From the NCBI GenBank assembly GCA_951812645.1, contig CATOSM010000001.1, positions 1,529,560 through 1,593,559 of the forward strand: a DNA stretch of 64,000 nucleotides. The letters are read 5' to 3'. The position numbers and the translations under genes are program-made. The notes beneath the pieces were generated by a model. It saw only the letters and a list, made by a program, of their open reading frames with translations, was not told the origin of the DNA and searched no databases. Source of the stretch: an uncultured Candidatus Nitrosopumilus sp. GTDB taxonomy: Archaea; Thermoproteota; Nitrososphaeria; Nitrososphaerales; Nitrosopumilaceae. Within the stretch, counting starts at the first letter, position 1. Each line of letters opens with the position of its first letter. Below, piece after piece: positions 4,523 to 52,152 of this stretch.

Positions 4523-5341
4523 TCATTTAGAGAAATTCTTTGCCCATCCGCGTTCCATTAACTTAATTTTGGATTCGGGTTTCACGCATGCTTCTGTGTC
4601 GTCAGCTGCCTTTATTGCCCCAACCAGATTGTTTGGACAGATGTAAGTATCAGGAGGATACCCCCACATCTCTGCAATTAACTTTTGAGAATCTTTTGGA
4701 GTGATGACGTCATAGTAATCAGATTCCATCGGAGGCAATACATGAGGACATGTTTTGGCAGGAGGATCGTCAAGATTTTGTGGATGATAAGTTATGTTTA
4801 CCAGAAAATGGCTCACTTCGCCTTTTAGCTCAAAATCAAATGTAATGAACTCAGAGTCTCTGACCGGTTCAATTCTTTCCCATCCCATGACTGGATTTTT
4901 GATTATGGTATTTCCATGCTCATCCGTGGTTTGATGAAACTCGTTTTTTATCGAATAAAACGTGCTATTGTCATACATTCCAGGCCAGAACAAATCATTT
5001 GGAAACTTCATGCTGATTGGCATAGGGATATTTTCTTTGGGCAGAAAAGTGACGGTCATAGTGCAACTTCCAAAGGTTGTCTCACTCAGATGAGGAGACT
5101 TTTCAGTCTTGAAGAAAAAGTGCTTTTCTCCAAACGGCGACAAAGAGTAACGTTCTATGTAATATCCGCCATCAAGAAGTTTCCTTTCATTTTCTGGAAG
5201 AGAATCAACATCCATCCAAAATATTGCCTCAGACTCTGGAATTAATGCAAAAGATCCTGTAACACCGGCAATTACTAAAAAAACCAAGAACTTCAATTGC
5301 TTTGGATAAAATATGTGAGATTCATAAGTACTTCTCCCCAT
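4523..5341 (-). CDS. Membrane-anchored extracellular protein, unknown
   Basis: From the ATG at 5341 (MGRSTYESH) the protein has about 272 aa: one hydrophobic segment (about residues 17-33, LKFLVFLVIAGVTGSFAL), then a long polar, likely extracellular domain. The C terminus has CVKPESKIKLMERGWA, a Cys-plus-ERGWA ending seen in other secreted thaumarchaeal proteins. The reading frame stays open up to 5449, but that extension runs through the iteron region and a perfect palindrome, so the later start is preferred. Function unknown. Confidence 0.7.
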   Translation of the reverse strand: MGRSTYESHIFYPKQLKFLVFLVIAGVTGSFALIPESEAIFWMDVDSLPENERKLLDGGYYIERYSLSPFGEKHFFFKTEKSPHLSETTFGSCTMTVTFLPKENIPMPISMKFPNDLFWPGMYDNSTFYSIKNEFHQTTDEHGNTIIKNPVMGWERIEPVRDSEFITFDFELKGEVSHFLVNITYHPQNLDDPPAKTCPHVLPPMESDYYDVITPKDSQKLIAEMWGYPPDTYICPNNLVGAIKAADDTEACVKPESKIKLMERGWAKNFSK

Positions 5342-5371: not shown

Positions 5372-5429
5372 GTATACTTGCAAAACAACCTGCACGATCA
5401 GAGGATTTTTCGATAGTTTCGACAAAATC

Positions 5430-5589
5430 ACCGAATTGATAGGCATCATAGATCAAACTATCGGAAAGTTTCGGAACATTTTACCGAATTGATAAATTAT
5501 CTCACCGAATTGATACCGAATTGAAAACTTGATGTCTCCGAATTGATATTTCATTTACCGAATTGATAGTTCACACCACCGAATTGATA
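5430..5589 (+). repeat. Iteron array, ACCGAATTGATA x7, about 21-bp pitch
   Basis: Direct repeats begin at 5430, 5483, 5504, 5515 (ACCGAATTGA only), 5537 (first base T), 5557 and 5578. From 5483 on, start-to-start distances are 21, 11, 22, 20 and 21, that is whole or half multiples of two helical turns. The 5430-5483 gap contains decayed CGGAA-type motifs. All copies have the same orientation, as in plasmid or viral replication iterons. The array lies just outside the last gene of the polymerase operon, so it may be a replication or transposition site of the casposon. Confidence 0.75.
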
Positions 5590-5631: not shown

Positions 5632-5976
5632 TCAGTACCTGTTTTCGATGCTGTCCTTTCTTTCATTTTTGTAATGGTTGTACAACCACAATCCTCCAAA
5701 GATTGCAATCGTCGCTACACAAAAAATCAAGAAGGTCTTCACAATTCCAGAGTTTCCAGCAATGTTCACTCCTTTCACATCTTTGAGATATTTTGCAAAC
5801 TCTTCAGGCCTTTCCTTAAACTGTACAAAATTCTTCATGCTGTTTGCACGATAGGTCCTAGGTTTCTTGTCAGGTCCCCTTTCTCTGCTGCGAGGTTTTT
5901 TTCCAGCTAAGATATTTTCAGAGTCATCATAACTTTCAGCTGCAATTGCAACAACTTTGTTTTCATACATCATCAT
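5632..5976 (-). CDS. Small single-pass membrane protein of the casposon
   Basis: A 114-aa protein with a basic middle (KKPRSRERGPDKKPRT, about residues 26-41) and one transmembrane helix near residues 79-98 (VKTFLIFCVATIAIFGGLWLY). It overlaps the end of the polymerase gene by 4 bases, so it is the last gene of the five-gene minus-strand operon. A basic DNA-binding segment next to a membrane anchor suggests tethering of replication to the membrane, but this is speculation. No family recognised. Confidence 0.6.
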   Translation of the reverse strand: MMMYENKVVAIAAESYDDSENILAGKKPRSRERGPDKKPRTYRANSMKNFVQFKERPEEFAKYLKDVKGVNIAGNSGIVKTFLIFCVATIAIFGGLWLYNHYKNERKDSIENRY

Positions 5977-8744
5977 ATTACATCACCTCCCCTGGACATG
6001 ATGCTGCCAGTAATGATTTTCTCGATTGTCTTTTTGTGGAGTTTCAACACTCCATCTGTTTTGCATCTAATCCTCTTCTGCAATGAGATTAGGTTGCTTC
6101 TGGATATTCCAAACTTGTGGGAATCTTTGGGTCTGATGTTCAGTATCTTCTCTTCTAGGTTGTCATAGACAGTGCAACTATCCGAGTCTTCAGAAATGCC
6201 TAGAACATTAGATGCATCAAGGTTTGCGACTTCCTTTCCGACATATTTTATCAGATTCCTGTCTATTTTCATGCGTAATCTGGGCAACAATCCTGTATCT
6301 CCGCCTGACTTTGTCTCCTTGTGGCCTACATAGCCCTCCAACATTTCGCTCAATGGTTTCCAGTAGAGAGATGCATCAGAGTCAGAATATTTTTCTCCAG
6401 TTGTATAATCTGTAAATCCGATATACTGGATGTATTCTCTGCTCTTTGCATCAAGATATGGCAAGGTAGGAATTACCACATTGCCATTATCATCTGCTTT
6501 GCATCCTGCACCAACCAATATCTTGTTGAATGGTCGTAGTTTGGAGAATCTCTTCAAGACGTTTGGTGTAGTGATACTCATCTTGGATACAGCATATTGA
6601 TTATCATACTTGTCAAGTATCTCTTGTTTTCTTTCAGGAGAGTAATGCATTGCAAGTATGTCATGCCACCATCTCTTTTCATCAACATCCAACAAATATC
6701 CAAAACCATGAGATGTGAATTTGTGAATATCAAATCTATTTTCTATGTTATCATGTTCAAACAAGGTGTATCTCTTGGATGAAATTCCAAAAAATAAGAC
6801 ATTCTCCAATAGTTTCCCGTCATCTGATTTTTCAATCTTCATAATCTGCACATTGTTTTCGTATGGGTTTAGTTTCTGGAAAAATTCCTGAATCTCTGTT
6901 GCATGTTTTGGTGACACCATGATGGAATCAGTATCCATGTAAGCAACGTATCCGTCTCTGTGTGATGTAACCAAACTTTCCGCTGCTGCCAAAACCAATC
7001 TCGCTGCTGCAGGCAGGAACACTCCAAGTATCGGATTGAAATGCTTTGCAGGAACTTCCTTTCTTGCTAGAACATTTGGGTTTGCAGAAAATGGCTCATC
7101 AATTCCGTAAACAGTTACTGGTTCGTTTTGCTTTTCAGATTCAGAGTTTACCTGAATGTGAATACCATAGGATGCAGTGTTTGCAATTATCTTGATGGTG
7201 TTCTGTATTGTGGTATGTATTTCAGAATCTAGAAATTGTTTCATCTTTAGTCTCTTCTCAATTAGTTGTCTGATGAAATTCTCTTCTCTAGGATTTACTG
7301 CAACTCCTTGAAAAACATCTATTTTTTCATCAGGAATATTTTGCTGTATTCCTACGGGATGAAACGTAATTGCTTTCTGAATTGTTGGAGTATGGCCAGT
7401 AAGCAACTTTGAGGCTATCAAATCCGATAGCGTGTACCACAAGCTTGTCCCATCTGTGCTTTTGAGGTAGTTTACGCCTATGTTCTGGGTCTTTTTGGAG
7501 CCATATGAACAACGGACAGGCACAATCATGGAGCCGTCTGGCACTACCTTGCATATCGTGGCAAGTTGCTTCCACGTATCTTTTTGAGAAATGTCCTGCA
7601 ACATTATCCCATCAAGGAACTTCTGGGTTTGCTGTGTGGTATCGGAGGTTTCTATTTTTTCTGCTATCAAAAATGAATACATTCCCATCAATGAAAACAA
7701 GGTTGGATAGGTGGAGGTACAATCAAGGTAGGTTGCTGGAACGGGAGTCTTTCTGATTCGAGTTTCGACTCTTCCGCCATAGTATGCACTCATCAAGTTT
7801 CCTAGAATCTCTTTTGGAAACTCTGGATTGTTCTCCAATAATGGCTTTATGTTTAGTTTCTCCAAGTAGAGTTTACTGATAGATGCAGGTGAATACAACT
7901 TGTTTGCGTTATTTGGTTTTACCAAGAATTTATTTTCCAACACAGAAATAATGTTACAATAGAGTCTGTGTACGGTTAATGATTTCTCCATATTGTTTCT
8001 GATTGCATCTTCTGTGATTCCTTTCTTGTTTTTGAAATTGGAAGCAACACCAAATGTCTTGGCAACCTTATCAATTCCATCAAATGATTCATTGCTCATT
8101 GCATATCCCAAAGTTTTCAAATCAAGAAAGTATCCCCTATACACCTTGTGAGTTGGAATGTTTTTCTTTTCACTCTTGGTTCTTAGCGGAGTTGCAAACT
8201 GTATGAATGCTGCATCACTGTTTATGCTCTTTATCTTGATTGCAGGGAGACGTGGAATACCATCAACTAGTTTTATCGAGAACGCATCTTGAATCTTTCT
8301 TGCGGTTCCCCACGATGTTGCAAGTCTTGACAACTCATATGGCAAGTCAAAACCTACACACTTTGCCCTTGCCTCATAGATATACGGATAAAATACCTTT
8401 GTAACAAATTCGGTCTTTGCCATCACTAGGACGATGCAGTTTTTCTGTTGCTGTATTTTCTCGGCAATCTGTCTTATCAATTCGATTTTTTTTGGGTTTA
8501 GATTCTCGTCATGGAATAAAACAATCTTGTACAATGAGTCATTAATCCAGATTCCACAGGAGCCAAAGGTCAAGGATTGCTGTTGGTCGGATGTTGTCTC
8601 TGTGGATGGGGTCAACATCATTCCGTTGTTGACATTCTCATTATGGGAATGATGTTGGATAGGCTTGTAGTTCCCTGTGTAACATCTGAGACTGATTGGC
8701 CCCGGCTGGGGTGAATTGATCGCGCCTATTTTGCCCATTTTCAT
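5973..8744 (-). CDS. polB: B-family DNA polymerase (casposon PolB)
   Basis: 923 aa. Palm motifs are in order: YYGGRVETR (about residue 316), motif A YLDCTSTYPTLF (about 338), motif B KIIANTASYGIH (about 538), motif C YMDTDSIMV (about 627) and a KRYTLF element (about 687). An exonuclease-like region upstream contains VGFDLPYEL and YFLDLKTLGYAM with candidate acidic residues. The long N-terminal 100 residues and the roughly 200-residue tail are unassigned; the tail ends in a possible DNA-binding region (FGISRSNLISLQKRI). Literature on family 1 casposons describes protein-primed polymerases; whether this one needs a terminal protein is not visible. It overlaps the HNH gene by 4 bases (ATGA), indicating translational coupling. 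Confidence 0.92.
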   Translation of the reverse strand: MKMGKIGAINSPQPGPISLRCYTGNYKPIQHHSHNENVNNGMMLTPSTETTSDQQQSLTFGSCGIWINDSLYKIVLFHDENLNPKKIELIRQIAEKIQQQKNCIVLVMAKTEFVTKVFYPYIYEARAKCVGFDLPYELSRLATSWGTARKIQDAFSIKLVDGIPRLPAIKIKSINSDAAFIQFATPLRTKSEKKNIPTHKVYRGYFLDLKTLGYAMSNESFDGIDKVAKTFGVASNFKNKKGITEDAIRNNMEKSLTVHRLYCNIISVLENKFLVKPNNANKLYSPASISKLYLEKLNIKPLLENNPEFPKEILGNLMSAYYGGRVETRIRKTPVPATYLDCTSTYPTLFSLMGMYSFLIAEKIETSDTTQQTQKFLDGIMLQDISQKDTWKQLATICKVVPDGSMIVPVRCSYGSKKTQNIGVNYLKSTDGTSLWYTLSDLIASKLLTGHTPTIQKAITFHPVGIQQNIPDEKIDVFQGVAVNPREENFIRQLIEKRLKMKQFLDSEIHTTIQNTIKIIANTASYGIHIQVNSESEKQNEPVTVYGIDEPFSANPNVLARKEVPAKHFNPILGVFLPAAARLVLAAAESLVTSHRDGYVAYMDTDSIMVSPKHATEIQEFFQKLNPYENNVQIMKIEKSDDGKLLENVLFFGISSKRYTLFEHDNIENRFDIHKFTSHGFGYLLDVDEKRWWHDILAMHYSPERKQEILDKYDNQYAVSKMSITTPNVLKRFSKLRPFNKILVGAGCKADDNGNVVIPTLPYLDAKSREYIQYIGFTDYTTGEKYSDSDASLYWKPLSEMLEGYVGHKETKSGGDTGLLPRLRMKIDRNLIKYVGKEVANLDASNVLGISEDSDSCTVYDNLEEKILNIRPKDSHKFGISRSNLISLQKRIRCKTDGVLKLHKKTIEKIITGSIMSRGGDVI

Positions 8745-9238
8745 GCGTAATCTCCCTTCTCCATATTCAACGTCTGGTAGATTCTCTGGCGCAATTTCTT
8801 TGCCAATTCCCCATATGCACTGTATCCGGTCTTTTTGCCCTTGAGCATCAAAACATCATGAATCCCCATTAGCAAGAACCCGAGACGGACATTTTCTGGC
8901 TGGTCCTTTTGCAACCAACGAGCATCCCAGGTCTTTTGTAATTCACTCAACTCATAGTGGCATTTCTTGTCTACCGTAATGGTTCTGTAATCGTGTTTTC
9001 TTCCTGCAATGTGATGCAATTCTAAATTGTATGATTCCTCTTTAGAGTTACAAATCTCGCATCTGTTCTTCTTTTCCTGCATTGATTTGTTTTTGGGTTT
9101 TGTTACAATCTCATTTATCCACCCTTCAATCTCATCGATTGTATCTAGTGTATCGTCTCTGAGTTTGCCAATACAAAATCCCATCAAGGTTTGCAAACTG
9201 ACAGTTTTATTTACTAGAGTGGTTTCAGAATCAGTCAT
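8741..9238 (-). CDS. HNH endonuclease of the casposon
   Basis: 165 aa with a Zn-binding HNH core: CEIC (Cys60, Cys63), LELHHIAGRKH (His75-His76) and KKCHYELS (Cys93-His94). HNH nucleases are near-universal casposon passengers. It may nick target or element DNA, or act against other elements. It overlaps both neighbours by 4 bases, inside the polymerase operon. Confidence 0.85.
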   Translation of the reverse strand: MTDSETTLVNKTVSLQTLMGFCIGKLRDDTLDTIDEIEGWINEIVTKPKNKSMQEKKNRCEICNSKEESYNLELHHIAGRKHDYRTITVDKKCHYELSELQKTWDARWLQKDQPENVRLGFLLMGIHDVLMLKGKKTGYSAYGELAKKLRQRIYQTLNMEKGDYA

Positions 9239-9747
9239 TTTGTATTATACACCTCGTAGTATTCTGGTTCTTCAATTCTTTGATTGATTCTGATTATCTC
9301 ATCAGGGTTTGTCTCTAGTTTGTGTATCTTTCCTTTGCTGTCTTTTACTTTCTTGTTTCTGAACTTTGAGAGTTTGGATTTGTCTCCAGTGTTTAGGAAT
9401 TGTTTCACTGCATTGTGGTATCGTCCAACAACTGATGCAGTCCTTGAATCTCTAATCTCAACACTCTTTTCCTTTTTGTCAGTGTTGATTCTCATCACTC
9501 TTCTGATTCTGTCCCATCTTTTTACAACTGGTTTTCCATTTACTTTTTTGAAACCGTTTGTGTGTTTGATTACGTTCTTTACAGTAATGTTGTTGTCGTT
9601 TGCTGCTTGTGGCAGCGTCTTTGTTTTGCTGTTACGCAACTTACTAATCACTGCAAGTGATTTTTCGCGCAACATCTTTTGCCTAGGAGTTAGTTTCCTC
9701 CAGGGTCTTCTGTACAACGGTAGGGCCGTCATAGCGAGGGCCTCCAT
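9235..9747 (-). CDS. Basic protein, probable DNA-binding, casposon
   Basis: Up to 170 aa, very basic (many Lys and Arg), with a helix-turn-helix-like segment around LPQAANDNNITVKNVIKHTNGF (about residues 45-66) and a basic central region. A start at the sixth codon (MTALPLYRRPW, 9732) is as likely as the first. It overlaps the HNH gene by 4 bases. No named family recognised; a structural or regulatory DNA-binding role is inferred from composition and operon position. Confidence 0.6.
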   Translation of the reverse strand: MEALAMTALPLYRRPWRKLTPRQKMLREKSLAVISKLRNSKTKTLPQAANDNNITVKNVIKHTNGFKKVNGKPVVKRWDRIRRVMRINTDKKEKSVEIRDSRTASVVGRYHNAVKQFLNTGDKSKLSKFRNKKVKDSKGKIHKLETNPDEIIRINQRIEEPEYYEVYNTK

Positions 9748-9988: not shown

Positions 9989-10510
9989 ATGACCTCAAAT
10001 GACATTGATTTGCTTCGAAAAGGACTCACATCGGAGTATTTTCTAGCCTCATTTCTGGAAAAAGACCCTTCTGGGTACAGATTGGGACAGATAGTACAGG
10101 ATACCAAAGGCAAGCCACCAAACAGCAAGACGCTCTATCCATCATTGAACCAACTTCTAAAGACAAAGTACATTGTTGAAAAAAATGAAAAGTATTATCC
10201 AAATCTTACAAAACTAATCAACACCATGGATTCTACCCACATTCGTGATTGGCAGGAATCTCTTGATCCTGATGAGAAACAGGTATTGATAGAAATGCTG
10301 CAAAACAGGGAATTTTTCAAGGTAGTTTCAGATGAAATATTACGAACCATTCATGATCAACCAAACCGCATTCATAATATAGATGCGCTTGAAACAATTG
10401 CAAACAAGATTGGATTACTAACTGCTGCAATCATTTTGTATAGAACCAATACAAAACAAACTAATCAAGAATCACAAGAAAAATTTTCTCCTGAAAATGA
10501 TTTAAAATAA
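9989..10510 (+). CDS. PadR-like winged-helix regulator of the casposon
   Basis: 173 aa. The N-terminal half has winged-helix spacing: FLASFLEKDPSGYRLGQIV, then NSKTLYPSLNQLLKTKYIVEKN as recognition helix and turn, then a short wing (KYYPNLTKLI). This resembles PadR-type domains. The C-terminal half is helical and may dimerise. It is the first gene of the cas1-side operon and probably binds the dyad at 9911-9957, setting the balance between polymerase and casposase expression (inference). Confidence 0.65.
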   Translation: MTSNDIDLLRKGLTSEYFLASFLEKDPSGYRLGQIVQDTKGKPPNSKTLYPSLNQLLKTKYIVEKNEKYYPNLTKLINTMDSTHIRDWQESLDPDEKQVLIEMLQNREFFKVVSDEILRTIHDQPNRIHNIDALETIANKIGLLTAAIILYRTNTKQTNQESQEKFSPENDLK

Positions 10511-10537: not shown

Positions 10538-10888
10538 ATGGTGTGGAATGAACAATTCATTCCAATGATGAAAGAGTTTGCGTTTGAAAGAAAACTATCA
10601 ACAAAAACAAAACAAACCCAAAAACAAATCACAAAAACGTACAAGGATGAAAAAAAGAAACAAAAATACTCTAAAAAGAAAACTCCAATTCAAAAATCAC
10701 CAAGCATGGCAGTTATTTCCGAGGCAATATTGATATTTCTAAAATCAATGCCTTCTTTGAGATTATTTCTATTCGTTCCTGAAAAAACATTATGGAAGTT
10801 GTGTAAATTGTGGGAAAGTTATGGCATGTTTGAATTTGTAACTAAATTTAATCAAGCATTTGAAAATCAAAACAAAAATTCTCAGTAA
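10538..10888 (+). CDS. Hypothetical basic protein between regulator and cas1
   Basis: 116 aa, with an extremely Lys/Gln/Thr-rich stretch (about residues 20-52) and then a hydrophobic helical part (AVISEAILIFLKSMPSLRLFLFVP). It lies 27 bases after the regulator and 26 bases before cas1, so it is co-transcribed. No family recognised. A terminal-protein or DNA-binding role could be considered because the element has a polymerase but no recognised priming protein. Confidence 0.5.
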   Translation: MVWNEQFIPMMKEFAFERKLSTKTKQTQKQITKTYKDEKKKQKYSKKKTPIQKSPSMAVISEAILIFLKSMPSLRLFLFVPEKTLWKLCKLWESYGMFEFVTKFNQAFENQNKNSQ

Positions 10889-10914: not shown

Positions 10915-12189
10915 ATGCACAAAGTTCTTGTATCATCAAGTAACAAAAGATGTACTTTGAATCCATTATTGATTACGGGTTTTGGAACTTCAATCAATGT
11001 GGATAAGAGAAAATTGATCATAACTAACAGACTAAAAGATACAAGGCTGGAATTTTATCCCCACACGATTAACCATGACGGAATAATCATTGATGGCCAT
11101 ACTGGCAACATCACGTTTGAGGCGATGAGATGGCTCTCAAAGCACAACATCAACCTGACATTGCTGAACTGGAACGGCCAGTTGTTGGCAAATGTCATGC
11201 CTGAGCAGCCAAAATCAGGTAAATTACGCGTAAAACAGTACCAAAAGTACCTTGATTCTACCAATAGATTTGAAATTGCTCTGAATATAGGACAAACCAA
11301 GGTTGAGCATTCCCTAAATTTGTTGGAGAAATTATCTAAATTCTACGAGTCTGTAGATTTTGTCAAAATCAGAAAATTAGCAGAAAAAGAAGATTTGTTC
11401 TTGTTGGATACAATGAAAAATAATGAGAGTCAGAACATTTCAAAATCAATAAAACAACTGATGACCTATGAAGGAAGAATAGCAAAAATCTACCATGAGA
11501 ATCTAATTGCAATTTTCAATGAATTGTATCCGGAGTTTAATTTTACAGGAAGAAAGAACAAGACAAACTCTAGAAACTATAATGCATCAGATGAAATAAA
11601 CGCCTTGCTGAATTATGGTTATGCTATACTTGAATCAGAAATTAGAAGAGGGATTAATTCAGTGGGGTTAGATTATTCCATTGGATTCTTGCATGAGATT
11701 AATCAGAGCAGAACTCCACTAGTCTATGACGTTCAGGAGTTGTTTAGATGGCTCATCGACATTTCTGTAATTCAATTACTTGAAGAAAAGAAGATCAAGA
11801 AATCCGATTTTATAATTACAGAGAATTATCACACTAGACTAGGTGAAGACGTTGCAAAGTTGTTAATTGAAAAAATTAATTCAAACTTTAATGCCAGATA
11901 CAATTACAAGAATGGAAAGAATTATTCATATCAAGTTATCTTGCAAGATAATTTACAACAGTTGTCTAATTTCATAGTAGGTAAGAAGAGAGAGTTTGAT
12001 TTTGTTATTCCTAAAATGAAACTGATTAGAAATGATAATCTTGAATTAAGAGAGAAGATTTTGAATATGACCCCTAACGAGAGAAAGCAGCTAGGAATCA
12101 ATAAATCCACATTATGGCATATCCAGAAAAATTTGTCTGAAGGTAAAACCCCTAAAATTTATGAAAAAATTCTTTTAAAAATTCAATAG
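10915..12189 (+). CDS. cas1: Cas1 casposase (integrase of the casposon)
   Basis: 424 aa, longer than CRISPR Cas1 because of an extra C-terminal region. The N-terminal beta-domain is followed by the catalytic all-helical domain: active-site Glu in MTYEGRIAKIYHENL (about residue 184), INALLNYGYAILESEIRRG, His in SIGFLHEINQS (about 263), and the acidic pair in LVYDVQELFRW (about 276-280). The last about 40 residues (MTPNERKQLGINKSTLWHIQ) form a helix-turn-helix, a casposase hallmark. It catalyses integration of the element into target DNA. No cas2 is nearby, which supports casposase rather than a CRISPR adaptation gene. Confidence 0.93.
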   Translation: MHKVLVSSSNKRCTLNPLLITGFGTSINVDKRKLIITNRLKDTRLEFYPHTINHDGIIIDGHTGNITFEAMRWLSKHNINLTLLNWNGQLLANVMPEQPKSGKLRVKQYQKYLDSTNRFEIALNIGQTKVEHSLNLLEKLSKFYESVDFVKIRKLAEKEDLFLLDTMKNNESQNISKSIKQLMTYEGRIAKIYHENLIAIFNELYPEFNFTGRKNKTNSRNYNASDEINALLNYGYAILESEIRRGINSVGLDYSIGFLHEINQSRTPLVYDVQELFRWLIDISVIQLLEEKKIKKSDFIITENYHTRLGEDVAKLLIEKINSNFNARYNYKNGKNYSYQVILQDNLQQLSNFIVGKKREFDFVIPKMKLIRNDNLELREKILNMTPNERKQLGINKSTLWHIQKNLSEGKTPKIYEKILLKIQ

Positions 12190-12316: not shown

Positions 12317-13648
12317 ATGGGAGAATGTCATAGATGTTATGCTAAATTAGAATCACAATTAACAGATTCCTTGCATTGTTTAGATTGCGAACAGGATCTA
12401 AAAAACGGTAATAGTTGTGATGTTTGTGATAAACCGAAATTTAGAAATCTTTGGGATCCATTTTTCTATTATCAAGTTCCAATGATGAATGATGGGATTG
12501 AAATTTTGCTTGAAAAAGGTAAAGCACATCATCTTTGCGCATTAGCACTTGTAACTTATACTGAAGTAATGGGCGGTTTAGTCACAGGTAAATTAAAAAA
12601 AGAAATTGGCGCTTCAAAATCAAACTTTGAAGCATTTCTTCCATATTTAGGTGAAAAATATGTTAAATTAAACGAAAATTTCGATATTTACAAAGATGTA
12701 CGAAGCAAATTAGTACATGAATTTGCACCAAGGATGTCTCATGGAATTTGGTTAACTAAAAACGCATTAGATTTTAGAATTGGGATTGAATATAAAACAA
12801 AGCATTTGAATTTCCACCTTAGAGAATATTATCGAGATTTCAAAAAGGGTGTTGAAACATACAAATTAGAATTAGAAAATGATAAACAGAATCCAAAAAT
12901 CTTAGAAAATTTTCTTAAAGCAACAGATGATTCTATTAAAGATGAAATAATTGAGAATAAAATTCCAATACCTACAGATAATCTTAAACGAATTTCTGAA
13001 GGATGCAAAAATCACGTATTTTCTTTACTTGAAGAAGCAACAAATCAACATAATAAAGAAAAATACAATCTAGCAATATTTTTGACAATTATTGCTTTAG
13101 AAGAAACAAGTAAACTTGCAGTATATTATGATCACATACGACAATTAAAACCTGTTTCAGTTAGAATGCAAAAAAGATTAACTGAGCACAATTATAAAAT
13201 TTTTAAAATCTTTAAAACAGAAATAAAAAATAATAAGAATATTTCAACTAAAGATGATCTTTTAATTCCAAAAATGTTGGGTAGTCTAAATTTTGTTAAA
13301 CAATTTATTTTGTATTATGACCAAATTGGTAATACAAACATGACATTAAATCAACATTTTTTAAAACATGATATGACAAAGAACAATTTGGGTCATTACT
13401 CAACATTTCTTTGGAGGTTTACGAATATTTTATTTTTATCTGAATTACTAAAAATTGATTTTGCAAAATCTGATGGAAATGTATATTCTGATTCAAATGT
13501 GTATAATTCTGAAATTTATAAAACTATTCAGATACGAATTAATGAATTTACAAACAATGATCTTCCAGGTTCTGAAAGTAAAGCCCTTTTTGTCATTGAT
13601 GAATTAAAATCACTGGCATCAAAATTTGATATGTTTATTGATTATTAA
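12317..13648 (+). CDS. Zinc-ribbon / AbiV-like fusion protein
   Basis: 443 aa. The N terminus carries three CxxC pairs (Cys4/7, 21/24, 34/37), a treble Zn-ribbon. The middle is helical. Around residues 230-300 is an AbiV-like core: NKEKYNLAIFLTIIALEETSKLAVYY followed by LTEHNYKIFKIF, matching the AbiV pattern of a helix with LAI-ALEE-K and a later H-x2-K motif. AbiV proteins are abortive-infection factors related to HEPN folds. The gene stands alone just outside the casposon with lower GC than the chromosome. The Zn-ribbon may sense nucleic acid (inference). Confidence 0.6.
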   Translation: MGECHRCYAKLESQLTDSLHCLDCEQDLKNGNSCDVCDKPKFRNLWDPFFYYQVPMMNDGIEILLEKGKAHHLCALALVTYTEVMGGLVTGKLKKEIGASKSNFEAFLPYLGEKYVKLNENFDIYKDVRSKLVHEFAPRMSHGIWLTKNALDFRIGIEYKTKHLNFHLREYYRDFKKGVETYKLELENDKQNPKILENFLKATDDSIKDEIIENKIPIPTDNLKRISEGCKNHVFSLLEEATNQHNKEKYNLAIFLTIIALEETSKLAVYYDHIRQLKPVSVRMQKRLTEHNYKIFKIFKTEIKNNKNISTKDDLLIPKMLGSLNFVKQFILYYDQIGNTNMTLNQHFLKHDMTKNNLGHYSTFLWRFTNILFLSELLKIDFAKSDGNVYSDSNVYNSEIYKTIQIRINEFTNNDLPGSESKALFVIDELKSLASKFDMFIDY

Positions 13649-15233: not shown

Positions 15234-15371
15234 ATTTACAATATTCTAAGACAATTATAAAAATTAGAAACAAATTCCCTTAAGAAATTGGTTTGAAAAT
15301 GTTTTACAATAAATAGTGTACAAAAAATATTTTTTTCTTTATTTATTTATCATAAGTTCATTTTTTGATTT

Positions 15372-15463
15372 CCACGTGGGTGTACTTTCTCTCTCCTTGA
15401 CTATATCCCCAGCACAACATGCATGGGGTTATAGTTAAAGAAGTAAAAATCATATCCACGTGG
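15372..15463. promoter_or_regulatory. Structured intergenic site: stem-loop between two CCACGTGG palindromes
   Basis: CCACGTGG occurs at 15372-15379 and 15456-15463. Between them a 14-bp stem (12 of 14 pairs; 15397-15410 with 15425-15438) encloses a 14-base loop. The symmetrical layout in a gene-free gap of 280 bases suggests a protein-binding region or a small structured RNA. No known family assigned. Confidence 0.45.
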
Positions 15464-15513
15464 AATAAAGAATCAATGAGTTTAGAATACAAGTAGACTT
15501 TAAATCATTAATT

Positions 15514-15705: not shown

Positions 15706-15869
15706 ATTCTAATTATGATATTTGTATTGATATTGCATAGGTTATAGTAATATAACTACATAATTTCAAATTAATTTTAGAAATCAGTCTTTACAAAATA
15801 AATTATATTTTAAATATGAGATATAAGGTAATGTTAAAAATATAATATTTTGATTAATTGGTTGATATC

Positions 15870-16997
15870 ATGGAAGAAAATATTTGGAAACCAAAAAAAC
15901 TTTGGAAATTTGGATTGTTTTTAGGTGCAGGAGCGTCTGTTTGTGTCAATAAACCAACTACAAAACAATTCAAAGAGAACATGGTTAATTATTCTCCCGG
16001 ATCACAAGACGAAGAAATATTACAATCATTTCTTCAAATGTATGAATTCAAAGATATTGAATATGTTCTACAAGCAATAAAGGACATCAAAAATTTTTCT
16101 GAAAGCAATGGCGGAAAATACTTGAAAAAGATGCAAGAAAATAACAAACTAACGTTTAATTTGCTTAATAATCGATTCTCGGAATTTTCTAAGAAAATTA
16201 ATTCAATTGAGAAAGTATTGGTAAAGAAAATCTTTGATGAGTATCATTGGAAAAAGAATGACTCAGAAATACTTCAAGATGTCCATTATGAAATCATGAA
16301 TTATCTTACTCGTTTAGGAACACTGGCAGTATTTACAACAAATTATGATAATGCAATTGAAGAATTGTGTGAAGAGCACTATGAAGAATTCAGATTGATT
16401 GACGGATTTGTACGTAATCCCTCAGATAGAAATTTCAGTATTTGGGAAGGAGACTTTTCTGACAAGGAAAACAGAAATCCTGCTAGAAACAACATAAGAT
16501 ATTACAAATTACACGGTTCACTTAATTGGAAACATCACGTTATTCATGGAATAGTTAAAACGAACGAAGAATCAATTTCCCTTGATTCAAAATTTACTGA
16601 AAACGTATTGATATTTCCCACATTGTCTCCTAAATTAGAAGAAAAGGCAGAACCTTTCAAGACATTGATATCTGAATTTAGAAAAAGACTCTTTGAATTA
16701 GATTCATGTATTGTTATAGGGTTTTCTTTTCGAGATAGCATGAGTCAAATCTTTAAAGATTTTCTAATGGACAAAGGATCTTTGGTCATAGTTTCTCCTT
16801 CAGGCTATGAGGATTTTATGAAAAATGTTGCTCACATTGAGAAACCAAAACAAATCAAGAAAAAAGTAATTTGTGTGGAAAGATTATTTGATTCAGAAGT
16901 GGATTTGCACTTTATTCAAACAGAAGTATCTCCAAGAAATGGTTTTACTATTGTGAAGCAATTGATGAAAGTGTATGGAAAAATATACAATGATTGA
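15870..16997 (+). CDS. SIR2-like NADase-type defence protein
   Basis: About 375 aa. Rossmann-type SIR2 motifs are in order: FLGAGAS (about residue 17), FTTNYDNAIEE (about 154), YYKLHGSLNW (about 212) and CIVIGFSFRDSMSQIF (about 280). This is the SIR2_2-like class found alone or with partners in anti-phage systems, where NAD depletion kills the infected cell. The ATG at 15870 is preferred to an upstream TTG at 15858. No Argonaute or helicase partner is adjacent, so it appears as a stand-alone gene. Confidence 0.8.
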   Translation: MEENIWKPKKLWKFGLFLGAGASVCVNKPTTKQFKENMVNYSPGSQDEEILQSFLQMYEFKDIEYVLQAIKDIKNFSESNGGKYLKKMQENNKLTFNLLNNRFSEFSKKINSIEKVLVKKIFDEYHWKKNDSEILQDVHYEIMNYLTRLGTLAVFTTNYDNAIEELCEEHYEEFRLIDGFVRNPSDRNFSIWEGDFSDKENRNPARNNIRYYKLHGSLNWKHHVIHGIVKTNEESISLDSKFTENVLIFPTLSPKLEEKAEPFKTLISEFRKRLFELDSCIVIGFSFRDSMSQIFKDFLMDKGSLVIVSPSGYEDFMKNVAHIEKPKQIKKKVICVERLFDSEVDLHFIQTEVSPRNGFTIVKQLMKVYGKIYND

Positions 16998-20636: not shown

Positions 20637-22359
20637 TTAAGCAGATTCAAACATGGTTTTGATTTCTTTAAACCTGTCTTTTTTACGTTTCATTATATTT
20701 TTTAGAATTCTCTTGGATTCTAGATTCCAGACATGGCTTGCAAAGAAATTATGCAATGTCATAATATCTCGTCCTTCTTCATCCTGTCGTATGTGAACAG
20801 TCTGATCGAAGAATTGATTCAATATTTCATCAGACAACTTCAATAATTTTTCATTGACTTCAAAGTTTTCAAAATAAGGATCTAGTATTTTTGGTTCTTT
20901 CTTCAATTCAATCTTTTTATTCAGAACGTAATCAGTCAGCGCTTGAAAATAAGTAGTAACAAAGAGCAATCTCGCATATTTTTTTTCATCCATGTTAGCC
21001 TTTTTACTTCCATAATGGAATTTCTTTTCACAGTAAGTTTTCACTAAATATGGGTACAGGAGTAACCGGTAATCATCTTCAATTTCACCTTCTGAGAAAA
21101 TCCTAGTGTATTCAGAGCCACCGGGCATGTATTTGCTTATGCTACCATACGGCTTTGCAGGATTTTGTTCTATTGCAGCAGCCATAGATTGAATAGCATC
21201 ATTGGCAGGAATTACCTTGTCCTTTTTATCAACAAGATATTTGTTTAGAGTCTCATCGCCACGAAAATGTTCTTTTTCTTGTTTAGATTTGGCAATCCAG
21301 GCACCTGCCTGTTGTTCATAATAGTAGCCAAGTTTTGTAGACAATTGTCCGGCGATTATGTTATGGAATCTTTCCAGAGATATTAGATCCCTTCCTTTTA
21401 CAGCATTTTGTGAGTTTCTATATTTTGTAATGTTATTTCTTGTGGTTCTTCCATCTTCTTTGATAATCGTAATCTGAATATTTCCATGAATGTTTGGATC
21501 ACCTCTTACAACATCAGATATTGTTGTAGATGTCTGAGCACCATTAACAATTTGTGGTGCAACTAATCTAATTTTTGCATCTTCTAACAATTGAAAATCC
21601 TTTACTACGATGGTTATGCCATTATTGTAATAAAAGACCTCTTCAGGTTCATCCAACAAAGATTTCCTTAATTGCTTATTCACCTTAGTTTTAACAGGCA
21701 AGAATTTTCTAATATTGGATTCAAAGATGTATTTGTTGCTTCTATTCACTAAATGACCTAATTCAGACAGAGAGATTACGCCGATAAGAGTTTTATCAAA
21801 TTCTAAAGATGTTTCTAAAGTTATTGTTTCATTTTTGTCATCACATGGTTCCGTAATTTCATTCCACAATTTTTGAATAATTTGGTCCAGACCAAAAACA
21901 CGAAAATTTTCTGAATCCTCATATGTGACCTTTTGATCTGTAACATAGATAATTTCCCATTCCCAGTCTTTTCTTTGTATGTCTATTAGTGCATCTCGGA
22001 TACGACCCTACAGAAAGTTCATTGGGATTTGTTTTAAGAAATGGTTCTATTTTTGATTTAAAGGCCTGCAAGTCATCCATACTGTGAGATTTTCCAAATT
22101 TTGTCTGAAAAATCCTGAAAAAGTTCATTTCAGAGCCACGAATTTCTAAAATGGCATCTATTCCTTTATCATTTGGGCCGTCTAAGATTCCATTTTCAGC
22201 ATCATCTTCAGTTGCGTGAAAGACTTCGGTTAGTATCCATTTTAGAAATAATCTTCCTTTTTCAACAGAATTTTCAGCCTTGGAAACTTCATTTTCTAGA
22301 CCTTGCTTCACACTTTCAATAAAATTTTCTGAAGGTAATCTGAATTCATTAGTTGACAA
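20637..22359 (-). pseudogene. AIPR-family abortive infection protein, frameshifted
   Basis: Two frames make one gene of about 573 aa. The N-terminal 118 residues (22359 to about 22008) contain NDKGIDAILEIRG and FFRIFQTKFGKS, the start of the AIPR nuclease-like region. The rest continues in another frame as RIRDALIDIQRKDWEWEII, then the AIPR core LVAPQIVNGAQTSTTI and NITKYRNSQNAVKGRDL. Removing one C from the CCC run at 22006-22008 restores the frame. AIPR proteins act in phage resistance. True inactivation or a base-calling error are both possible. Confidence 0.8.
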
Positions 22360-51945: not shown

Positions 51946-52152
51946 ACTTTTAGAAAAATGGAACTTTTCTAGAGACAAAATGCTAACCTAGTCCGGTCAG
52001 AGTCAAACCTCTATAGATTTCTCAGTATCCCGGTTCAAATTTTGTTAGGAGCACAGTGTGCAGTAGGATACAGTTAGGCGGTTTTTTACTGCACCCATGT
52101 GTAAAAAAATATCTTTCAATATTGCATAAAATTCTTTTAGAAAACAAATGAA
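51946..52152. other. Non-coding interval
   Basis: No gene or repeat recognised. Confidence 0.25.

Follow-up and report, generated by a model that had tools for sequence, protein, structure and literature searches.

What is a cluster of helically phased direct repeats doing beside the DNA polymerase gene of a mobile element? The repeats lie in a 64,000-nucleotide stretch of DNA from an uncultured Candidatus Nitrosopumilus sp. (contig CATOSM010000001.1), here called the window, and a preliminary description had suggested that they may be either a replication origin or the site where the casposase recognises its element.

Repeats and genes of the window casposon

The features concerned, in window coordinates, are as follows.

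5395-5429, + strand: array head CGATCAGA...TCGATAGTTTCGACAAAATC, degenerate phased copies, kept left of related arrays
5430-5589, + strand: seven direct ACCGAATTGATA copies, starting at 5430, 5483, 5504, 5515, 5537, 5557 and 5578
5632-5976, - strand: TM114, a small protein that combines a basic block RSRERGPDKKPR with a predicted membrane helix and accompanies the array
5973-8744, - strand: PolB, the family B DNA polymerase of the casposon, assigned by homology between casposon loci
8741-9238, - strand: p165, HNH-nuclease-like (phrog HNH, E 4e-4)
9235-9747, - strand: p170, conserved in polB casposons, with a predicted N-terminal helix-turn-helix-like domain
9989-10510, + strand: p173, regulator-like small protein without a family match
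10538-10888, + strand: p116, without a family match, fused to p173 in some relatives
10915-12189, + strand: Cas1, the casposase (Pfam Cas_Cas1, E 2e-57)
15361-15475, no strand: tandem casposon junction, a terminal inverted repeat with its outer end at 15410
15411-15424, no strand: 14-bp target duplication; the next element begins at 15425

A motif search of the window recovered all seven start positions of the preliminary description, with five copies exact and two carrying one mismatch, all on the + strand. The intervals are 53, 21, 11, 22, 20 and 21 bp; the proposed 21-bp pitch therefore holds for four of the six and fails for 53 bp (five turns) and 11 bp (one turn), while the claim that the copies share one face of the helix is upheld by a phasing of R = 0.91 at 10.5 bp, a value reached by a fraction of 0.0001 of 20,000 random placements. 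The array also reaches further left than 5430, into the degenerate head at 5395-5429, and it is at 5395 that blastn homology with two related loci (L001 and L009) starts. Allowing up to two mismatches, the motif matches 18 times in the 64-kb window, with seven of these matches forming the array, against a mean of 8.26 and a maximum of 15 in 100 shuffles. A spread of the motif through the host genome had been raised as a possible objection; in this genome (G000) CCGAATTGATA occurs seven times on the forward strand, six times in the array and a single time outside it (G000:C1:643790), and never on the reverse strand, and a control pattern gave no match. No array-like cluster, defined as at least four copies of which at least three have at most one mismatch, appeared in 1.9 Mb of block-shuffled sequence.

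The surrounding element belongs to the family-1 casposons by the joint presence of cas1 and polB, the latter homologous across loci, and what had been described as direct repeats of a casposon is indeed a helically phased direct-repeat array inside such an element. Between the array and the outer end at 15410 stand TM114, polB, p165, p170, p173, p116, cas1, an AbiV-like gene and two small ORFs; a search of the PDB with the PolB sequence returned no match. A search that allowed up to five mismatches, over the window and the 20 kb beyond it, found no left end. The ars genes left of the array are common to relatives and lack surrounding synteny, and therefore no empty site could be drawn. The target flank resembles a tRNA 3' end by eye, and ARAGORN and Rfam identified no tRNA there. 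A further degenerate casposon end lies at 52064, and the window carries defence-like cargo of the AbiV-type HEPN, SIR2-like and AIPR kinds (12317-13648, 15858-16997, 20637-21869).

Element ends, array position and distribution

Casposon ends were located by self-comparison of 100 kb of the G174 genome (coordinates as in OX638319.1), which revealed a repeated palindromic block made of a pair of terminal inverted repeats that face one another with a 14-bp duplication between them, at the junctions of tandem casposons. An end has the form GGGGWTATAGTTA-N16-ACCCACGTGKAA and is accompanied by a 14-bp target duplication. Tandem casposons at one target, with this duplication, stand in the window, in G174 and in G118. 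The array itself, with its CGATCA head, was considered as the left terminus of the casposon and rejected, since no inverted copy with a target duplication was found and the self-comparison of the complete genome places the true ends elsewhere.

Both ends were found for 14 related elements, and ten of them hold exactly one array (E1, E3, E4, E5, F1, F2, F3, H1, H2 and H3), 2.5-11 kb from the nearer end and often near the middle. The four without an array are E2 (8 kb, its second end degenerate with seven mismatches), J1 (26 kb), J2 (7 kb) and the 1.5-kb element of G154. Because Cas1 was found in just five of the 14 bounded elements (E1, E4, E5, F1 and, in broken form, H2), half of the array-bearing elements, five, lack cas1.

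Exact motif pairs occur in 11 of 250 Nitrosopumilaceae genomes, all from one genus, and the control pattern in none. The terminal repeat of the window-type casposon is present in 16 of the 94 genomes of the genus and, among the matches listed, arrays with at most one mismatch were found in 12 of these 16 versus none of the 78 genomes without it (Fisher p 4e-12); G000 and G174 are counted here from the exact-pair search, the other mismatch levels extending only up to G159, and the single match of G160, which has no terminal repeats and for which no mismatch level is listed, is counted as none. At three mismatches the pair pattern reaches 29 of the 94 genomes and the control pattern also matches in several, and therefore only matches with at most one mismatch were used. 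A second objection named in the preliminary description was conservation of the array upstream of orthologues of the gene at 4523-5341 in strains without the element; the array follows the casposon type instead, and its neighbours vary.

These patterns bear on the idea that the array is bound by the casposase, or is a transposition enhancer that pairs the element ends, which we regard as improbable. An element-specific cis site in transposons would suit this role, as would the helix-turn-helix-like C-terminal module that Cas1 and PolB share (hhalign 97%). However, the element ends are separate terminal inverted repeats that carry sequences other than the array motif, and the shared module is nearly unchanged in L005, a relative in which the array monomer has changed. 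Relatives of the casposase with at least 57% identity occur in 18 of the 94 genomes, and among the matches listed seven such genomes are without arrays (G134, G138, G098, G119, G127, G115 and G132); conversely, arrays occur in elements without cas1, and G112 and G154 have arrays and no casposase relative of at least 57% identity. In M. mazei, the text of PMC10359463 reports, a mini-casposon consisting solely of terminal repeats and target duplications moved. Recognition of the array by the casposase, one of the two functions first proposed, is thus unlikely. The module common to Cas1 and PolB spans about 50 residues (BLASTP 38% identity; motifs REKILNMTP...GINKSTLW... and EEKILNIRP...GISRSNLI...), and the two proteins may share a DNA target, perhaps the terminal repeat.

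The other function first proposed, an iteron-type origin of the excised, circular casposon served by an element-encoded initiator such as p170, appears somewhat unlikely. A 21-bp pitch on one helix face is the layout of iterons, the array is internal and often central, it is retained in elements without enzymes of their own, and across ten elements 130,590 of 168,522 coding bases (77%) run away from it. The predicted helix-turn-helix-like domain of p170 would fit an initiator (Pfam and PHROG gave no Rep family match), and a circular intermediate, although undetected, is hypothesised for the M. mazei casposon in the text of PMC10359463. In contrast, the family-1 polymerase is closest to protein-primed ones, which have origins at the ends (text of PMC6563490 and PMC4046053), and the published model for family-1 casposons, as worded in the text of PMC4046053, likewise places origins there. 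Moreover, p170 is present in casposons in which no phased array was found (L018 and L020), and that of L005 is 86% identical although the monomer changed. No strand-composition signal was found beyond that of gene orientation (third-position skew does not differ, p 0.999). A rise of GC skew at the array in nine of ten elements was considered as an origin signal and is accounted for by gene orientation.

Layouts of the array among relatives

A Cas1 scan of GTDB contigs returned 29 related loci, most of them labelled Nitrosopumilus, and arrays of the same or a variant motif were found in 11 (L001, L002, L003, L004, L005, L007, L008, L009, L014, L024 and L013, the last built from a different monomer). 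The distinct related arrays in DNA fetched from Nitrosopumilaceae number 45 once a loose cluster is set aside; 46 are listed, and L069, the region around a stray copy, is probably no array. Pooled over 25 arrays and 562 pairs, the best period is 10.55 bp (R 0.87), and copies more than 25 bp apart keep phase (R 0.85). A spacing plan of 11-12, 52-53, 21 and 21 bp is common to coding and non-coding arrays. No array match was found in viruses, plasmids or phages.

In layout A, seen in the window, L001, L009, L024 and others, the array is non-coding and lies directly 3' of TM114. Layout B comprises longer mixed arrays of about 350-470 bp in which CCGGAAAGATA and CCGAAAAGATA stand beside CCGAATTGATA; its casposons L002, L003 and L008 have Cas1, with polB, p165, p170 and TM114 not nearby. 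In L065 a B-type left part continues into an A-type right part, so layouts A and B are one module. In layout C (L004, L007 and L014), CCGGAWTGATA arrays extend across the 3' end of polB and the 5' end of TM114.

The motif is non-coding in the window, and in L004 and L007 it passes from polB, where it is read as R-I-D or R-N-D, into TM114, where it is read as T-G-L-I or A-G-M-I. The polB product of L004 ends ...NFRIDNRIDSE... and its TM114 starts MTGMIDDDTGLINQDAGLINDD..., with the change of frame bridged in both loci by 52 bp, or five turns, such that helical phase is kept. Since the motif occurs in two reading frames, one where polB ends and the other where the next gene begins, it is the DNA itself that is conserved. 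As far as can be shown from sequence, the array is a cis site specific to casposons, phased and internal, and constrained at the level of its DNA.

An explanation by intrinsically curved or histone-positioning DNA, or by selfish expansion of a tandem repeat that has no partner, is most improbable. The AATT and AAA tracts are phased and perfect 21-bp tandem copies in G150 show expansion; however, the phased A-tracts of the window array are ordinary, with 20% of window segments scoring as high, and neither curvature nor slippage would require the degree of conservation seen in the CCG part of the monomer, in its direction and in the 52-53-bp gap. The G150 copies (CCGAATTGATAATTGCAGATA; G150:C16:1-116 and G150:C27:51397-51535) stand at two contig ends and are probably one long, recently expanded array; contamination of G150 and G000 is estimated at 8-9%. 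Repeats of other kinds were also seen. A second monomer, CAGAAMAAATA, forms arrays phased at 10.6 bp in L013 (11379-11894) and L014 (11507-11947) that overlap a distant TM114 relative after cas1, and a 43-bp tandem repeat, CATCGACAAAATCTTGTGGAAACTCTTGTCGATTCTGTAGAGT, follows directly after cas1 in L010 (from about 11280) and L021 (10670-10971), at a contig end in both.

Could the array instead control transcription, as an array of operators or enhancers through which two divergent gene runs are coordinated, much as in an immunity region? The layouts make this unlikely. The outward orientation of most coding bases would suit a control region as well as an origin. In most polymerase-less elements the array does lie upstream of a gene start, between two long sets of genes that point away from each other. 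In E1 and F2 this orientation covers 94-96% of coding bases, L003, L008 and L050 each have a gene start about 80 bp beyond the tail of the array, and a TATA-binding protein gene is present in several elements, in some of them beside the array. However, both neighbours end at the array in L001, L009, L054 and L055 (4 of 28 arrays, with tail-side gene calls that include antisense ORFs over TM114, the window among them, and are unreliable there), so that it precedes no gene in these four, and other elements have it embedded in the polB and TM114 reading frames. The TATA-binding protein genes (Pfam TBP, E 2e-28) are at L002 6274-6834, L108 10639-11199 and L092 12366-12929, and a serpin gene (L003 2417-3658; Pfam, E 5e-117) directly follows the array of the polymerase-less casposon L003.

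TM114 as candidate partner and known systems

TM114 follows the array better than cas1, polB or p170 do. It matches in 13 of the 94 genomes of the genus, which include all 12 listed array genomes, and the three genomes that have terminal repeats and no TM114 (G127, G134 and G165) have no listed array match with at most one mismatch. Across 400 genomes of the order, TM114 also turned up in a second genus (G013 and G015), and all three loci fetched from it have an array. When loci were chosen by TM114 alone, 14 of 20, with all three of the second genus among them, had three or more copies no further than 125 bp from the gene, versus 32 such clusters in 466 kb of shuffled control; several of the 20 also match in the pair-pattern search of the genus, and the three of genus g5 gave no match to the exact pattern. 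In the other six the gene stands without an adjoining array, one of these loci being cut by a contig end. The divergence of the protein follows the array too. In L005, polB, p165, p170 and Cas1 are 76-88% identical, TM114 is very different and the monomer is changed to CCGAATAAATC; L013 and L014 pair a divergent TM114 with the monomer CAGAAMAAATA; and no such array was seen in L010, L018 and L020, which have Cas1, p170 and a distant polB and no TM114 homologue.

TM114 is favoured as the partner on the grounds that it occurs, and diverges, together with the array. It adjoins the array, however, and the co-variation may therefore be plain linkage, which alone could account for part of the pattern. 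Polymerase-less elements have arrays with TM114 not nearby, and the TM114 matches of G118 contain stops where the arrays are intact. The TM114 model is poor (pLDDT 60.5), with a membrane-type helix at residues 77-111 and no known DNA-binding fold. The p170 model is confident (pLDDT 87), with a helix-turn-helix-like part suggested by weak matches; p170 does not follow the array, and its fold search was uninformative (best Foldseek E 0.32; best Z 4.8, to part of MYST acetyltransferases).

Our tentative first choice, drawn from these sequence comparisons, is that the array may be a cis-acting protein-binding platform with a TM114-type, membrane-anchored partner that acts in casposon maintenance or replication. 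An element-encoded protein would bind the copies side by side on one helix face, presumably cooperatively along the array, and TM114, with its basic block and one membrane helix, is the best candidate binder. Its complex with the array might tether casposon DNA to the membrane during replication or segregation of the excised element, the weakest step of the proposal, and elements without cas1 and polB would keep the site and rely in trans on the protein made by a sister element. It is possible, if doubtful, that array and TM114 form a movable two-part maintenance module in which the phased sites double as TM114 repeat codons (TGMIENS). With such a module, these CRISPR-related transposons would pass through an extrachromosomal stage tethered to the membrane, and their sister elements lacking cas1 and polB would be sustained in trans. 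A cis site present once per element, retained where the enzymes are lost and overlapping codons in two frames, marks a step of the cycle outside current models, which comprise terminal repeats, Cas1 and PolB; it also names a small set of proteins as candidate binders and offers a handle for finding decayed or enzyme-less casposons.

The element otherwise resembles known family-1 casposons of Thaumarchaeota (e.g. NitAR1-C1 and NitNF5-C1) in its Cas1 casposase, its PolB with small conserved upstream genes, and its terminal inverted repeats, target duplications and tandem insertion. The end GGGGATATAG with its 14-bp duplication is similar to the MetMaz-C1 end GGGATATAG and its 14-bp duplication as given in the text of PMC10359463. 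The preliminary description knew of no iteron array in a casposon, and the literature text searched agrees: that of PMC4046053, PMC6563490, PMC6614799 and PMC10359463, supplements excluded, mentions no internal phased array, and "iteron" appears in the text of PMC6563490 in a reference title only. The array is a real new cis-element of a known type of mobile element, and its mechanism is testable.

Plasmid iteron origins consist of direct repeats at two-turn pitch on one helix face, gathered in one cluster. The array shares the phased direct repeats and the single cluster; in contrast, no initiator homologue was found for it, its monomers are partly at one-turn pitch, it can be coding, and it is carried by a chromosome-borne transposon. 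Centromeres of the ParR/parC type have direct repeats of about 11 bp, spaced by one or two turns, beside a gene for a small protein, and the array resembles them in repeat length, pitch and adjoining small-protein gene. The array-adjoining protein differs, however, in having a membrane helix and no predicted ribbon-helix-helix, and no ParM-like motor was found in the element, Pfam and PHROG giving no motor or adaptor family match between the array and 15410. Plant transposons such as En/Spm carry subterminal transposase-binding repeats, with many copies of an 11-12 bp motif. The casposon array likewise places many short motif copies in a transposon, but it is absent from both ends and gathered in a single internal cluster.
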